This document shows positions 6,293-30,349 of a stretch of 64,000 bases of DNA, piece by piece. The position numbers were made by a program, and so were the translations under genes. Within the stretch, counting starts at the first letter, position 1. Each line of letters opens with the position of its first letter. The notes beneath the pieces were generated by a model, which worked only from the letters and a program-made list of their open reading frames with translations, made no database searches and was not told the DNA's origin. Source of the stretch: Candidatus Acidiferrales bacterium (lineage in GTDB: Bacteria; Acidobacteriota; Terriglobia; Acidiferrales; UBA7541); contig DASYYH010000011.1 of NCBI GenBank assembly GCA_035934015.1, forward strand, positions 124,001 to 188,000, written 5' to 3'.

Positions 6293-6808
6293 ATGGCGAT
6301 ACGCGACATGATTTTACCCGAATTTGACCACGAGGTAGCAACGACGCGAAAGGTGCTGGAACGCGTCCCAGAAGGAAAAAACGACTTCAAGCCGCATCCG
6401 AAGTCCATGCCGCTCGACCGGCTGGCGGGTCATGTGGCGGAGATCCCCGGCTGGGCCAAAGAGACCGTACTGCAAAATTCCGTGGAGGTGAATCCATCGG
6501 GAAATCCGCCGCCGCAAAACATGTCCCTGAAAATGACTTCGCGGAAACAACTGCTGGAAGAATTCGACAAGCGAGCCGCTGCCGGACGCGCGGCGATTGC
6601 GGGAGCCAGCGACGAAGAACTGATGAAGCCGTGGTCGCTGATTGCGAATGGAAAGGCGGTTTTCACGCTGCCGAAGAGTGTCGTGCTGCGCGGATTTGTG
6701 ATGAATCACATGATTCATCATCGCGCACAACTGAGCGTCTACCTGCGATTGAACGATGTGCCGGTACCGTCGATTTATGGGCCGTCGGCGGATGAGCAGG
6801 TGTTTTGA
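6293..6808 (+). CDS. DinB-family metal-binding protein
   Basis: The 171-residue protein has the four-helix DinB/YfiT layout with a metal-binding His triad: H47 in LDRLAGHVAEIPGW, and the C-terminal NHMIHHRAQLSVYLR (H139/H143 region). The family binds a divalent metal and includes thiol-dependent transferases and hydrolases; most members have no known substrate. A strong ribosome site, AGGAGGAAACG, precedes the ATG at 6293. The gene is divergent from the kinase across a 150-bp gap and stands alone. Function beyond the fold cannot be told. Confidence 0.88.
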   Translation: MAIRDMILPEFDHEVATTRKVLERVPEGKNDFKPHPKSMPLDRLAGHVAEIPGWAKETVLQNSVEVNPSGNPPPQNMSLKMTSRKQLLEEFDKRAAAGRAAIAGASDEELMKPWSLIANGKAVFTLPKSVVLRGFVMNHMIHHRAQLSVYLRLNDVPVPSIYGPSADEQVF

Positions 6809-6927
6809 AGGCAGTGATGAGTGACAAGTGATGCGTGACGAGAAAAGGCCAAATGCTTCTCGTCACTCGCGGGCGGCCGCTCCCGCAGGATATGGTTAGC
6901 GAAAAGGCTCTGCGCGAATTTACTTTG

Positions 6928-7158
6928 CTACGAAATGCGGGAGCGGCGCTGTTCGCGGCGGCGTTCACTGGCCCAAGCGATGAAGCGGCGCATGCGCGCG
7001 CGTTCGCGCCACATGAGACGAAAGAAACGACGCGCGTCAAGTTCGCCGGCTTCCGCGCCAAAGAACGTTTCCATGCGCCATTGGATATAGGGACTTTTCC
7101 AAGGCCGCAGACGATAGCCTTTCGAGATCGTCCAGTAGTAACGCACAGCGTTCAGCAT
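6928..7158 (-). CDS. Small conserved-looking hypothetical protein
   Basis: This 76-residue protein begins MLNAVRYYWTISKGYR and continues with a Trp/Tyr/Arg-rich sequence (LRPWKSPYIQWRMETFFG), then a basic helical tail ending RRREQRRSRIS. The aromatic composition and balanced codon use look like a real protein and not a shadow, and I have the impression of similar small proteins in Acidobacteriota genomes. The frame is open upstream only to a TAG with no better start and no obvious Shine-Dalgarno. Its role is unknown; high basic charge could allow RNA or membrane-surface binding, but that is a guess. Confidence 0.6.
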   Translation of the reverse strand: MLNAVRYYWTISKGYRLRPWKSPYIQWRMETFFGAEAGELDARRFFRLMWRERARMRRFIAWASERRREQRRSRIS

Positions 7159-7306
7159 GGTCGAGATGCTGGAGATTTCGAGGAGACGCAGGCTCGGACG
7201 CGCCGTTTGAGCGTTTGCACAAACGGAATTCTAGCAGAAGAAGTGACATACTGCCCGGAAAGGCCGCCCTACCAGCAGCAGTCCACCGCGACGAGAGGAA
7301 AAAAGC

Positions 7307-7346
7307 AGATCCTCCGCTCGCCGCTTCCAGCGGCTTCGCTCAGGAT
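7307..7346. repeat. Copy of a dispersed GCAGATTCCTCGCT-type element
   Basis: The stretch starting GCAGATCCTCCGCT and ending CTCAGGATGA encloses a 5-bp palindrome CCGCT / AGCGG (7321-7333). Its ends resemble those of the element around 12172-12214, whose ends read GCAGATTCCTCGCT and CTCGGAATGACA. I treat both as members of one short palindromic repeat family. It separates two small minus-strand genes. Confidence 0.5.
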
Positions 7347-7369
7347 GAAAACGCGCTGTGCGCGTTTTC
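7347..7369 (-). terminator. Probable rho-independent terminator of the 7368-7688 gene
   Basis: GAAAACGCG, CTGTG loop, CGCGTTTTC makes a perfect 9-bp stem. On the minus strand the stem starts at the TGA stop of the small secreted protein and ends in TTTTC, giving the GC-stem and U-tract shape of an intrinsic terminator. Confidence 0.6.
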
Positions 7370-7688
7370 ACTTTGCGGCGGCGATCGAGGCGACGTCGAT
7401 CATGTCGCCATTAAGCGTGCCGGTGACTGTGACGTTCTCGCCCGCGAAGGCGCGCGGCTTGGCCTGATCGCTCAGCTTATAAATTTTCCCCTTGGCATCC
7501 ACGAGGATGAATGCGCTGCCGCCCGCGACGCACTTGAGGGTGCAATCTTTCGCCGTGCCTTCCATCATGTGCGATGCGCCGCACATGCTGTCGCTGATGG
7601 CGCCGGTGAAGGTTTGCGGCTTTGGAGCTGCAAAAGCGAGACCGGCGAGAATCACTGCACTGCCTGCGAGTATTCCAGCTTTCTTCAT
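7368..7688 (-). CDS. Small secreted protein, DUF5818-like
   Basis: Starting at MKKAGILAGSAVILAGLAFA the protein has a standard Sec signal peptide (cleavage after AFA) and a mature part of about 86 residues. The mature part contains GAISDSMCGASHM, CTLKCVAGGSAFILVD and a final VTGTLNGDMIDVASI. The pattern of three Cys and an OB-like end matches small exported proteins of Acidobacteriota that I associate with DUF5818; the family name is from memory. The start at 7688 is chosen over the in-frame ATG at 7703 because AAGGAG sits six bases before it. The Cys/His/Met residues could bind a metal, which is inference. Confidence 0.75.
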   Translation of the reverse strand: MKKAGILAGSAVILAGLAFAAPKPQTFTGAISDSMCGASHMMEGTAKDCTLKCVAGGSAFILVDAKGKIYKLSDQAKPRAFAGENVTVTGTLNGDMIDVASIAAAK

Positions 7689-7761
7689 GACACGCTCCTT
7701 CATGAATTGAGTTTGACCGCTATTCCTTTTACGCTAATCCGAACGGAATCGGATGGCCGGG

Positions 7762-8211
7762 CTAGGGTCCGGCGCTCTTCTTCAATTCGGCGGCGGCGGC
7801 TTCAAAAAATTGCTGGACGATTTTTTTCGCCGCGACTTCGATCATGCGCTGGCCAACGGAGGCGATGACGCCGCCGACCTGCGCTTCGCCATCATACTTC
7901 ACTACGGTATGCCCGGCCTTTTCCTGCAGCGCAATGGCGCCCGCGCCTTTCAGGAAGCCGGGAGCGCCGCGGCCCTCGACAAGCATCTGAAACGATTCCG
8001 GCGGCTTTTTCTGCGCGAGTTCGACGCTGCCCTGAAAATTTCCGGAGAATGCGGCGATGCCGAATTTCATGGCGACTTTGTACCGATCAGGGCCATCGGC
8101 TTCGAGCTTTTGCGCGCCGGGAAGCAATTTGGCGAGGCGCTGCGGGTCCGTGAGAAGCCGCCAGACCGCTTCGCGCGGCGCGGGCAGCGTCACGCTTCCC
8201 TGCAACTTCAT
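7762..8211 (-). CDS. coxG: CoxG-like SRPBCC protein (carbon-monoxide dehydrogenase subunit G family)
   Basis: The 149-residue protein starts MKLQGSVTLPAPREAVWRLL and contains DPQRLAKLLPGAQ, the usual signature of the CoxG branch of the START/SRPBCC fold, then ends in an amphipathic helix. CoxG proteins are encoded with aerobic CO dehydrogenase-like enzymes and help recruit the enzyme to the membrane. Its ATG overlaps the stop of coxM by ATGA (8208-8211), so it is the fourth and last gene of the coxS-L-M-G unit. Confidence 0.9.
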   Translation of the reverse strand: MKLQGSVTLPAPREAVWRLLTDPQRLAKLLPGAQKLEADGPDRYKVAMKFGIAAFSGNFQGSVELAQKKPPESFQMLVEGRGAPGFLKGAGAIALQEKAGHTVVKYDGEAQVGGVIASVGQRMIEVAAKKIVQQFFEAAAAELKKSAGP

Positions 8212-9122
8212 TTCCGCTTGCCTTTGGCGGGCGCGGGAGACGCGGCGGCGGGAGACTGGGCGCGCTCGATGGCAAGGACGATAGCGCGGCGTGCAAAAAC
8301 GCCGGCCATTTCGCGACGATACGCGGCGGAAGCGAAAATGTCGGAAAGAGGCTCGACACCCTGGGCGGCCCTGGCGCAGGCATCGGCGATGAGTTTCTCG
8401 CTGGCCGCTTTGCCGCGCAGCGCTTTTTCGACAGCCGAGGCGCGATAGGCCTTCGAGCCGACGCCGGTCATGCCGAGCGCGATGTCTTCGATTTTGCCGC
8501 CTTTGCCGACGACTACGCGCGCGGCGGCTCCGACGATTGCAAAGCCGGAAGCGGGCTGATGGAATTTGCGATAGGCCGCGCCTTCGCCGGCGCGCTTCAC
8601 AGGTACGCGAACTTCGGTGAGGATTTCGCCCGGGCGAAGCTGCGTGGAAAGCAAATCAATGAAAAATTCCGCGGCAGGGATGGCGCGCTTGCCGCCGTCG
8701 CTGGATTGCGCAACGATTTCGGCGTCGAGAGCGAGAATGGCGGCGGGATAATCGGCGGCAGGATCGGCGTGAGCCAAGCTGCCGCCGAGCGTGCCGCGAT
8801 TGCGGACTTGCATGTCGCCAATTTCGGAAGCCGTCTCCGGCAACAAAGGGCATTTCTCCCGGAGCAATTCGGAGACAACGACCTGCGCATGCGTGACAAG
8901 CGCGCCGATGGCGATTTTGCCGCTCTCTTCGCGAATGTAATCCATGCCGCGCAAGCGGCCAATGTCGATGACATAGCGCGGTGAAGCGAGACGAAGCTTC
9001 ATCAGCGGAAGAAGACTATGGCCTCCGGCGAGGATTTTGGCTTCGTCGCCGTGCCGGCTGAGGAGGCGCAGAGCTTCGTCGAGAGTCTTTGGCGCTTGAT
9101 ATTCAAATGCGGCGGGAATCAT
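8208..9122 (-). CDS. coxM: FAD-binding subunit of a CO-dehydrogenase-like molybdenum hydroxylase
   Basis: The 304-residue subunit has the CoxM FAD motifs AGGHSLLPLMKLRLA near residue 32 and RNRGTLGGSLAHADPAAD near residue 105, followed by the CO-dehydrogenase flavoprotein C-terminal domain. It passes electrons from the iron-sulfur subunit to an acceptor. The start at 9122 (MIPAAFEYQAPKTL) gives an ATGA overlap with coxL and matches the family N-terminus. The 154 residues of open frame upstream of it are Arg-rich out-of-frame coxL sequence and are not translated. The extended C-terminus (SPAAASPAPAKGKRK) is unusual but harmless looking. Confidence 0.93.
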   Translation of the reverse strand: MIPAAFEYQAPKTLDEALRLLSRHGDEAKILAGGHSLLPLMKLRLASPRYVIDIGRLRGMDYIREESGKIAIGALVTHAQVVVSELLREKCPLLPETASEIGDMQVRNRGTLGGSLAHADPAADYPAAILALDAEIVAQSSDGGKRAIPAAEFFIDLLSTQLRPGEILTEVRVPVKRAGEGAAYRKFHQPASGFAIVGAAARVVVGKGGKIEDIALGMTGVGSKAYRASAVEKALRGKAASEKLIADACARAAQGVEPLSDIFASAAYRREMAGVFARRAIVLAIERAQSPAAASPAPAKGKRK

Positions 9123-28202: not shown

Positions 28203-28445
28203 GAACGCGCGATTGTATAGAATTCGGCGGCATCACGCAAAAGCATCGCGCGGTTGCGCGAATGCACGGCGGCGCAATTTTCGCGTAGTACTAAAGTTCT
28301 ATCGGCGACTGTTTTGTTTTGGAAACGGCTGTTTCGCTCTCTGTGGCGGCCTTGAAAATCTTAGGCATACTAGCGAATGTAAATCTTTGCCAGCCTTATG
28401 CGCCTTTGGGCACTTACACATGCTCTGGGGCACAGGCCGGCGCCC

Positions 28446-29228
28446 ATGACGACGACTAAACAAACGCGGAGCACAAAGCCCGAAGAGCGCGAGCTTGCGC
28501 GCAAGCGCCGCGAGCAGGAACGGCTAGAAGCGGAGCTTGCGGAATGTGAGCTGCGGCTCGCAACGCTTCGCGGCGAACTGGGCGCGCTGGAAAGGCGCTA
28601 TTTGAAACTCGTCGGCTTGCCCTATGCCGAGCTCGATGAGCTTCGCGCGCAAATCGCCGAGCGCATGGCTGCCGAGGACCCGCAAAATGAACGCTTGCAG
28701 CGCGCCGCTCAAGAGACCCGCGCTCGTGCGAATGAGACTCGCGGTGCAGCTTCCGTGAAGGAATCCGAGGAGACAAAGCAGTTCACGGCGTCACCGGAAC
28801 TGAAACGCAAATATCGGGAAGTTGCAAAGGCGATCCATCCGGATCTGACCACGGACACGGCTGATCGCGCGCGCCGCCAGGAGCTTATGGCCGAGGCCAA
28901 CGCAGCCTATCAAAAAGGCGACGAAGCGCGCCTCGCCAAGGTCCTCGACGTGTACGAGTCCAGCCCAGAAACGGTGAAAGGCGACGGCGCGGGCGCGGAA
29001 TTGGTTCGCGTGATTCGCAAACTCAGCCTGATGAAAAACCGCCTGGGCGAAATCGAAATCGAGCTGCAAAACCTGTTCAGCTCCGACCTTTATCTGCTGA
29101 AAGTTCAGGTCGAAGAGGCGCAGGAGCAAGGGCGCGACCTTCTTTCCGAGATGGCTGAAAAAGTCCGCAAGCGCATCGCGGATTCGAAGGAACGCATGGA
29201 AATTCTGGCGCCGGGGCGCGTGCACTGA
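28446..29228 (+). CDS. J-domain-like coiled-coil protein
   Basis: The protein of about 260 residues has a Glu/Arg-rich coiled coil at the N-terminus (ELARKRREQERLEAELAECELRLATLRGELGALERRY). A compact J-domain-like segment with the HPD tripeptide follows: LKRKYREVAKAIHPDLTTD, then RRQELMAEANAAYQKGDEARL. The end is a second helical region (LSLMKNRLGEIEIELQNLF). HPD is the motif by which J-proteins stimulate DnaK, so this may be a DnaK partner. The start at 28446 (MTTTKQTRS) is preferred; GTG/ATG starts up to 28398 are possible and no clear ribosome site is seen. The next gene overlaps its stop by one base. Confidence 0.8.
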   Translation: MTTTKQTRSTKPEERELARKRREQERLEAELAECELRLATLRGELGALERRYLKLVGLPYAELDELRAQIAERMAAEDPQNERLQRAAQETRARANETRGAASVKESEETKQFTASPELKRKYREVAKAIHPDLTTDTADRARRQELMAEANAAYQKGDEARLAKVLDVYESSPETVKGDGAGAELVRVIRKLSLMKNRLGEIEIELQNLFSSDLYLLKVQVEEAQEQGRDLLSEMAEKVRKRIADSKERMEILAPGRVH

Positions 29229-30349
29229 TGTCCTCGCGCCTCAAACGCGAAACGCGCGAGATCACGCGCAGCCAGCCCGGCGCGATTACGATTCTCTCGT
29301 CGCCGCTTGTCGTGCGCGGCTTGCGCGAGTTTCCGCAGACTTCGCGCTGGAGCATCAAGCAGGCTTTCACCGGGCCGCACTCGCATCTCTGCATCTCGAA
29401 GCACGGATACGTGGCGGGATATTCCGCCGCGACGCGCGAATTGAGCCAGCGCGTGGAAATCGCCGATCTCGAACTCAGCGCCGCAGCGACGGTAATCAGC
29501 GTTCCCGACGAACCTTTCATCGCGCGGCCTGATTTTCCGGGTTCTTTTGCCTGGGACCCTGCGGGGAGATTCCTCGTGGGTGCGTCCGGAACATGGCAGC
29601 CCGAACTGCACTTTTTCGATGCGCGCGTTGGCCGTTCCGCCGGCCGTTTCGGTCCTTTTCGCGTATTTCCCGCGCATCTCTGCTGGGCCGAGAGCGGCAA
29701 ATATTTCGCCGCGGCATCGGACGGTTCGGAAAATGGCGCGCTGATGCTGTGGATGGCGGGAGATTCGCCGGAAGAGTTCGAAGAACTATGCCAGCTCGAT
29801 AGCGGAAGCTTCCCGGATCTTTCTTCGCCGCAGGAAGAACCCGGCGATCAAGGGCAATTCTGGGGATTCGGCGCGACGGCCTTCCGTCCTGACGAAAAAG
29901 CCCTGGCGACGGTCCTGGAATTCGAAGGCGACTGGTCGGACGATACCATCGCAATCGTCCGCGTGCCGACGCTCGAAACCATCGCTCGATTCGACACCAC
30001 CGGCCACACGACGGATCTTTCGTGGTCCAGCGATGGCCGCCTGGTTCTTTTCTGCGCTTCCGGCCAGGCCTACTCTCTGGATGTGGCGAATGAAAACGTC
30101 GCTTCCCTGCCCTTCGCCGCGGAGCTTTGCGTTTGCCACCCCACGCTTCCGCTTTGCGCGTTCTACAATTCGTGGCTCAAGAATTCCGCGCGCGGCCGCA
30201 TCTTCGTGGCGGATTTGCAGAGAAACGCAATTCTGGAAGAATGCTGGGCCGACGGAATCGCCAGCCTGTGCTGGAGTCACGACGGCCAGATGCTCTACGC
30301 TGCAGCGCAAGATGGCACGGCGTATCTCTTCGAACGCCCCCTCGCGTAG
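29228..30349 (+). CDS. WD40-like beta-propeller protein
   Basis: The 373-residue protein shows repeated beta-blade patterns such as SFAWDPAGRFLVGASGTWQPELHFFDA, LSWSSDGRLVLFCASGQAYSLDVAN and LCWSHDGQMLYAAAQDGTAYLFE. The SxDGxxL repeats are typical of WD40/PQQ-type propellers. No signal peptide is present, so it is cytoplasmic. It is read from an ATG overlapping the stop of the J-domain gene (TGATG), which suggests that the two proteins are made together and may interact. No enzyme motif is visible. Function unknown. Confidence 0.75.
   Translation: MSSRLKRETREITRSQPGAITILSSPLVVRGLREFPQTSRWSIKQAFTGPHSHLCISKHGYVAGYSAATRELSQRVEIADLELSAAATVISVPDEPFIARPDFPGSFAWDPAGRFLVGASGTWQPELHFFDARVGRSAGRFGPFRVFPAHLCWAESGKYFAAASDGSENGALMLWMAGDSPEEFEELCQLDSGSFPDLSSPQEEPGDQGQFWGFGATAFRPDEKALATVLEFEGDWSDDTIAIVRVPTLETIARFDTTGHTTDLSWSSDGRLVLFCASGQAYSLDVANENVASLPFAAELCVCHPTLPLCAFYNSWLKNSARGRIFVADLQRNAILEECWADGIASLCWSHDGQMLYAAAQDGTAYLFERPLA

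Follow-up and report, generated by a model that had tools for sequence, protein, structure and literature searches.

What does a coiled-coil protein with a J-like hairpin do for the WD40 propeller whose start codon shares a base with its own stop codon? The question is posed by a two-gene locus in the window, a 64,000-nucleotide stretch of a contig from a Candidatus Acidiferrales bacterium. Gene A (28446-29228, + strand) encodes, from the ATG at 28446, a 260 aa protein characterized by profile searches, a family alignment and a tree as the apparent constant partner of a wider system (the ORF called by the program begins at 28398 and is 276 aa). Gene B (29228-30349, + strand) encodes a 373 aa protein in which PF00400, AlphaFold and Foldseek place a β-propeller behind an N-terminal tag. 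The two frames meet in a TGATG stop/start overlap (29226-29230, + strand) with one base, the A, in common, an arrangement suggestive of translational coupling. The initial annotation had described this overlap of an HPD coiled-coil gene with a WD40-like propeller gene and had seen no enzyme motif in either product; the overlap is confirmed, and a Pfam-type scan found no enzyme family above the curated cut-off for A or B. That annotation missed the tag at the start of B, which is common to unrelated partners of A's family elsewhere. The pair stands alone between a divergently transcribed gene pair and its downstream neighbor; the flanking genes, named by eye, are presumably a hydantoinase-like pair and tsaD. 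These flanks are stable in the family of the window, with the tsaD cluster a near neighbor in 10 of the 11 loci L060-L070.

B is a WD40 propeller both by its repeats, which score 41 bits against PF00400 (above the cut-off of 27), and by its predicted fold; the AlphaFold model is all beta with a pTM of 0.82, and its top Foldseek match is the bacterial WD40 domain 5yzv (E 2.4e-16). One scan of viral contigs with patterns made from B gave no matching stretch. Among 61 related genomes the A family is present in 17 and B in 11; it had been asked whether the two genes are unlinked in most genomes, and among these relatives B lies directly behind A in 11 of 11. The linkage exceeds chance because every genome with B has A directly upstream. 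A wider sample of 199 genomes of the phylum contains the A family in 27 and B-like matches in five, the window's own included; the other four are weaker, and none lies directly behind J. In G149 the match (E 1.7e-7) is two genes behind J; in G141 and G181 the matches (about 1e-14) are on contigs other than that of J and no clear tag was seen; G128 has a match at E 9.9e-4 and no J match. The chaperone-adaptor pair proposed in the initial annotation holds in part: the pair is conserved and A and B probably form one complex, but the propeller is not a fixed partner, and appears to be one of several that are interchangeable.

The exchange of partners is seen in a set of J loci comprised of 38 from the genome samples and 80 more, the best of 100 found when 84,980 species were searched with one genome each; dropping nine duplicates leaves 109 different loci, 108 of them with a readable J stop. 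The taxa given in the record titles are Acidobacteriota, Cyanobacteria, Chloroflexi, Nitrospirales, Nitrospinota, Methylomirabilota, Desulfuromonadales, other Deltaproteobacteria, Bacillota, Planctomycetota, WOR-3 and a Longimicrobiaceae; most records are MAGs, and a taxon name is no more reliable than its record. One record titled as a Bordetella parapertussis MAG (L158) contains the G187 locus (L072), assigned by the search to the window's class, and its title looks wrong. Upstream genes of J are common to close relatives; in 20 named loci examined by eye, no third gene 5' of J is common to distant lineages.

In 88 of the 109 loci an ORF on the same strand, here termed the partner, begins between 70 bases before and 100 bases after the J stop. 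Pfam analysis of 47 partners, drawn from those other than the acidobacterial WD40 proteins, identifies WD40, Sel1, TPR, LRR, ankyrin and WG repeats, GAF with GGDEF, FGE-sulfatase and the OB-fold of NAD-dependent ligase; the partners of L117, L123 and L178 have no Pfam family at threshold, and those of L137 and L141 match TPR and propeller models alike. Labels were assigned by similarity to scanned members, in place of an own Pfam scan, for L061-L070, L103-L112 (the WD40 ones), L119, L130, L138, L177, L084, L085, L088, L092 and L099. When partner type is mapped onto the J tree (105 proteins, 80 with a partner label; a quick method with several long branches), 21 changes are counted, where the least possible is 10 and the shuffled mean is 45.8; the starred branches force at least five changes for WD40 and at least six for TPR. 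Two pairs also occur within one set of records: JASHPG01 has a GAF-GGDEF pair (L101) and a WD40 pair (L105), which differ in receptor, and JAHFUH01 has L123 plus an ankyrin pair (L132). Eight loci of Geobacter type encode J and an LRR region as one fused protein, the LRR part being similar, at a best E of 4e-23, to the LRR partner that carries the tag in L133; the RG motif of the tag is absent from the three fusions inspected, and the Pfam scan covered one of the eight (L161). On sequence grounds, the constant parts of the system would be J and a short tag.

This tag is found near residues 20-40 of most partners and is built around S-S-x-L-V/I-x-R-G-L. The window's version of the motif is SSPLVVRGLREF. 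The tag occupies about residues 8-41 of B (29249-29350, + strand; profile A3, E 5.7e-10, at G000:C11:153249-153350), with the core LVVRGL at residues 27-32 (29306-29323, + strand); B is one of the 46 rows of that profile. Of 61 tag rows the spurious L116 was dropped from A3 and from the training sets, and A3 holds 46 of the other 60; L151 was skipped. One Arg is invariant in the 46-row alignment, and the Gly that follows is kept in at least 90%. A strict pattern, written after the partners had been viewed, occurs in 56 of 88 partners and, within these loci, in 53 of the 3684 remaining ORFs that are 80 aa or longer; the tagged partners are 25 WD40, 14 Sel1, nine TPR, two LRR, two OB, one WG, one ankyrin and two others. 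The strict pattern is absent from 32 partners, many of whose repeat-protein members carry variants by eye; the GAF-GGDEF and FGE-sulfatase partners likewise have variant tags. Nine of the 56 start at the window's TGATG offset and 22 overlap J by four bases. Strict tags are present in records named Acidobacteria, Cyanobacteria, Deltaproteobacteria-type and WOR-3, while in other phyla only variants were seen.

Lineage-held-out profiles provide a fairer test than a pattern written with the partners in view. At 6 bits these recover 24 of 56 acidobacterial partners (missing 32) against 3 of 3868 other ORFs, 9 of 13 cyanobacterial partners against 1 of 367, and 7 of 20 partners from the remaining lineages against 0 of 1199; the training tags were chosen by a loose form of the strict pattern, with L179 added by hand, and L164 is counted as a partner here (89 partners) but not in the strict-pattern count (88). 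Across 256 genomes, the different ones among the 199 and the 61, the tag profile matches in 22 genomes at E≤2.5e-5, in every case directly downstream of a J-family match; the matches lie within about 150 bases 3' of J, and each of the 22 genomes has one at E≤0.001. A scan of 30 genomes gave 14 matches at E≤3.8e-6, all J-linked, with the next best at E 0.007. The sole J-unlinked match at E≤0.001 in the 256 genomes is in G116 (E 4.3e-4), where by eye the ORF has the look of a ribbon-helix-helix antitoxin and neighbors a VapC-like ORF. The match of the tag profile to the ribbon-helix-helix antitoxin-like ORF L210:6211-6541 (TESELVRRGLRLVA) hints at a possible likeness between the tag helix and the first helix of that fold. 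J can exist without the tag, since 16 of 27 J genomes of the phylum sample and 4 of 17 among the relatives have no tag match at E≤0.001; eight of the 16 belong to genus g41 and one (G139/L092) carries a visible variant tag, and three of the four are L073-L075. Between pairs of unlike domain types, tag distance correlates with J distance (r 0.42; 0 of 1000 permutations as high); this is not proof of binding, because plain co-inheritance would give the same correlation.

Structure prediction is consistent with docking of the tag. A chain of the L112 J protein, a linker and the tag was folded by AlphaFold with 48 alignment rows, nine of which hold both parts. J is confident except for residues 91-100 and the end from about 241, and the 34-residue stretch 254-287 has pLDDT <50; behind it the mean pLDDT rises to 87 in tag block 291-300 and to 73 in block 301-310, residues 293-305 form a helix, and the final residues drop back below 50. 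In the window's B folded alone (23 rows), residues 1-37 have pLDDT <50 (28-46 in the tag) and the helix is absent. The tag is thus predicted to become ordered in a chain with J, the pattern that docking would give; the comparison spans two proteins (L112 and the window's B) and draws on pLDDT, not on contacts or PAE, and a helix may score well in AlphaFold without docking.

The reading that best accommodates these observations, and to which we give about an even chance, is a J-like core that serves Hsp70 through interchangeable, tag-docked receptors, in a layout like that of the F-box proteins. A, as the J-like co-chaperone, would hold the receptor B by its short N-terminal tag, which is predicted to be disordered alone and to form a helix on binding A; the HPD hairpin of A would engage DnaK, and a client of the receptor domain would thereby be passed to Hsp70. 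The receptor in the source genome would be the WD40 propeller; in other lineages Sel1, TPR, LRR, ankyrin and WG repeats or a ligase-type OB-fold would take its place behind a strict tag, and GAF-GGDEF or FGE-sulfatase behind variant tags. The steps differ in strength. Linkage, a common tag, domain exchange, the J-LRR fusion and HPD conservation are seen directly at the level of sequence. Physical docking of the tag on A is likely, and the recruitment of DnaK by A is somewhat favored, in a genome that has two full-length Hsp70 genes and a third, partial match. A third-party substrate falls a little short of an even chance; the receptor may read either a client or a signal, and presentation of a client to DnaK would be the corresponding outcome.

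The tag and its partners also bear on an unlikely alternative, in which A would serve the tagged protein alone, as its private chaperone for folding or assembly. The tag would then be a delivery signal for DnaK and J, and the client would be the repeat protein and not a third-party substrate. The genetics would be the same, namely linkage in relatives with A upstream and the frames overlapping. The tag, with its hydrophobic core and basic residues, resembles DnaK-binding peptides, and strong matches away from J were not found in the 30- and 256-genome scans, both of which suit a private signal; the invariant Arg and at least 90% Gly of the 46 tags are, however, more specific than a generic DnaK site. 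The partners include GGDEF, OB and FGE-sulfatase folds, for which we know of no need for a dedicated chaperone. The Geobacter-type fusion makes the pairing permanent, and is tagless in the three inspected, features more in keeping with a stable complex than with a transient folding step.

In the tag-docked receptor reading A would be a working J protein. The hairpin spans residues 116-156 of A (28791-28913, + strand), with the HPD codons, residues 131-133, at 28836-28844 (+ strand). The match of this region to Pfam DnaJ (PF00226) is weak, at E 0.0018 and 18.7 bits where the curated cut-off is 27.8; 17 of 26 family members match PF00226 at E≤0.01, the best at 6.1e-5. In the L112 model a helix at 106-119 is followed by the HPD loop and a helix at 127-146; long helices flank the hairpin on both sides, block 91-100 has a pLDDT of 60 and helix I of the J fold is not evident. 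Foldseek with the J model returned nothing at E≤0.001 (HscB ranks 23rd, E 0.79); long helices dominate both the VIA-align and the Foldseek lists, which hold no usable J-domain match. The weak score, the lack of an evident helix I, the long flanking helices and the Foldseek result would all fit a coiled-coil scaffold that has ceased to cooperate with Hsp70 and instead oligomerizes or localizes the tagged sensor. We consider such a scaffold distinctly improbable in view of the conservation of the hairpin: HPD is kept in 107 of 108 J loci, distant lineages included, and the one exception, L178, appears frame-broken and was read as a 112-residue piece; R113, H120, P121 and D122 are invariant across 48 aligned sequences; and 13 of 15 matches in a PDB profile search are J domains, although the top match is a designed repeat protein.

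The modules of the chaperone-based ternary systems described by Kaur and colleagues are said to include WD40, TPR or LRR. A conflict or defense sensor with diversifying recognition domains of this type, in which chaperone cores pair with effectors that vary by acquisition of diverse modules as described in Kaur et al. 2020 (PMC7159879), is very unlikely here, as neither window gene has an effector domain, PADLOC gives two marginal matches for A (JetC E 0.0018, PbeC E 0.078) and none for B, and the flanks are stable in the window's family; modules are exchangeable in both systems, but the core of the ternary systems is MoxR-vWA or a GTPase, whereas here it is a J protein.

The receptor reading has its nearest likeness in layout in the F-box proteins, in which a short N-terminal motif docks onto Skp1 while a WD40 or LRR domain picks the substrate. 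The likeness, a docking motif joined to an exchangeable receptor, is an analogy and homology is not claimed; with a J-like core, the machine served would be Hsp70 and not a ubiquitin ligase. Bacterial class C J-domain proteins similarly have an HPD hairpin without the DnaJ body, but the receptor here is mostly a separate tagged protein. The nearest working precedent is AtcJ-AtcC of the atcJABC operon of Shewanella oneidensis, in which a short dedicated J protein and its operon-encoded partner are joined by a 21-residue peptide (Kd of 7 nM for the whole J protein and 80 nM for the peptide; PMC6715715). In AtcJ the peptide is on the J protein, in an architecture described as a canonical J domain with a short C-terminal docking peptide; here it is the partner that carries the short tag, and its main domain differs from lineage to lineage through exchange. 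A second precedent is CbpA-CbpM, in which the specific partner is likewise encoded directly downstream of the J gene (PMC8215388); CbpM binds the J domain and inhibits, and its family is not among the best 25 families listed by Pfam for the window's B and the 47 partners at E cut-offs from 1 to 1e-10. The pair and the tag are not described in the accessible literature searched, which included PMC7159879, PMC3710099, PMC8215388 and PMC6715715.

The A-B pair is best classed with the J proteins that have a dedicated partner. There is a real chance of a general plug-in system for Hsp70 targeting; in its full form, that of an F-box-like Hsp70 receptor system in several phyla, with a constant J-like core, a docking tag of ~30 residues and at least seven receptor types (WD40, Sel1, TPR, LRR, ankyrin, WG and OB-fold, plus GAF-GGDEF and FGE-sulfatase with variant tags), the proposal is tentative. 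The direction of a bacterium's one or two Hsp70s to particular jobs is largely the work of J proteins. If the full proposal is true, a J core with plug-in receptors would be a general route to this targeting, new targeting could arise by domain exchange behind one tag, and many WD40, Sel1 and TPR proteins that lack an assigned function would acquire a role. J and the tag would form a peptide-dock pair that is directly open to test, and the AtcJ precedent indicates that a peptide-held J pair can matter to the cell.

Several loci depart from the simple pair. In L077 (G149:C6) the J ORF (6509-8143, - strand) has a Ser/Thr protein kinase domain N-terminal to J (E 1.8e-35); downstream of this ORF come first an LRR gene with a tag and next a WD40 gene, and both starts are tag-like by eye, although that of the WD40 gene has no tag-profile match at E≤0.001. 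L073, L074 and L075 have a tagless J of the window's own family 5' of secA-like genes (by eye), and in L078, L082, L086 and L089 the gene behind a tagless J encodes a protein of 566-568 aa that is apparently of potassium-channel/TrkA type (by eye). In L071:6788-7747 the tag is ahead of an NAD-dependent DNA ligase OB-fold with a zinc finger and helix-hairpin-helix; in L135:1860-2819, from a lineage distant from L071, it is ahead of a ligase OB-fold scoring just under the curated cut-off. L117 features two tagged genes in a row in one apparent operon, the second of which (7504-8244) has a PEGA domain.
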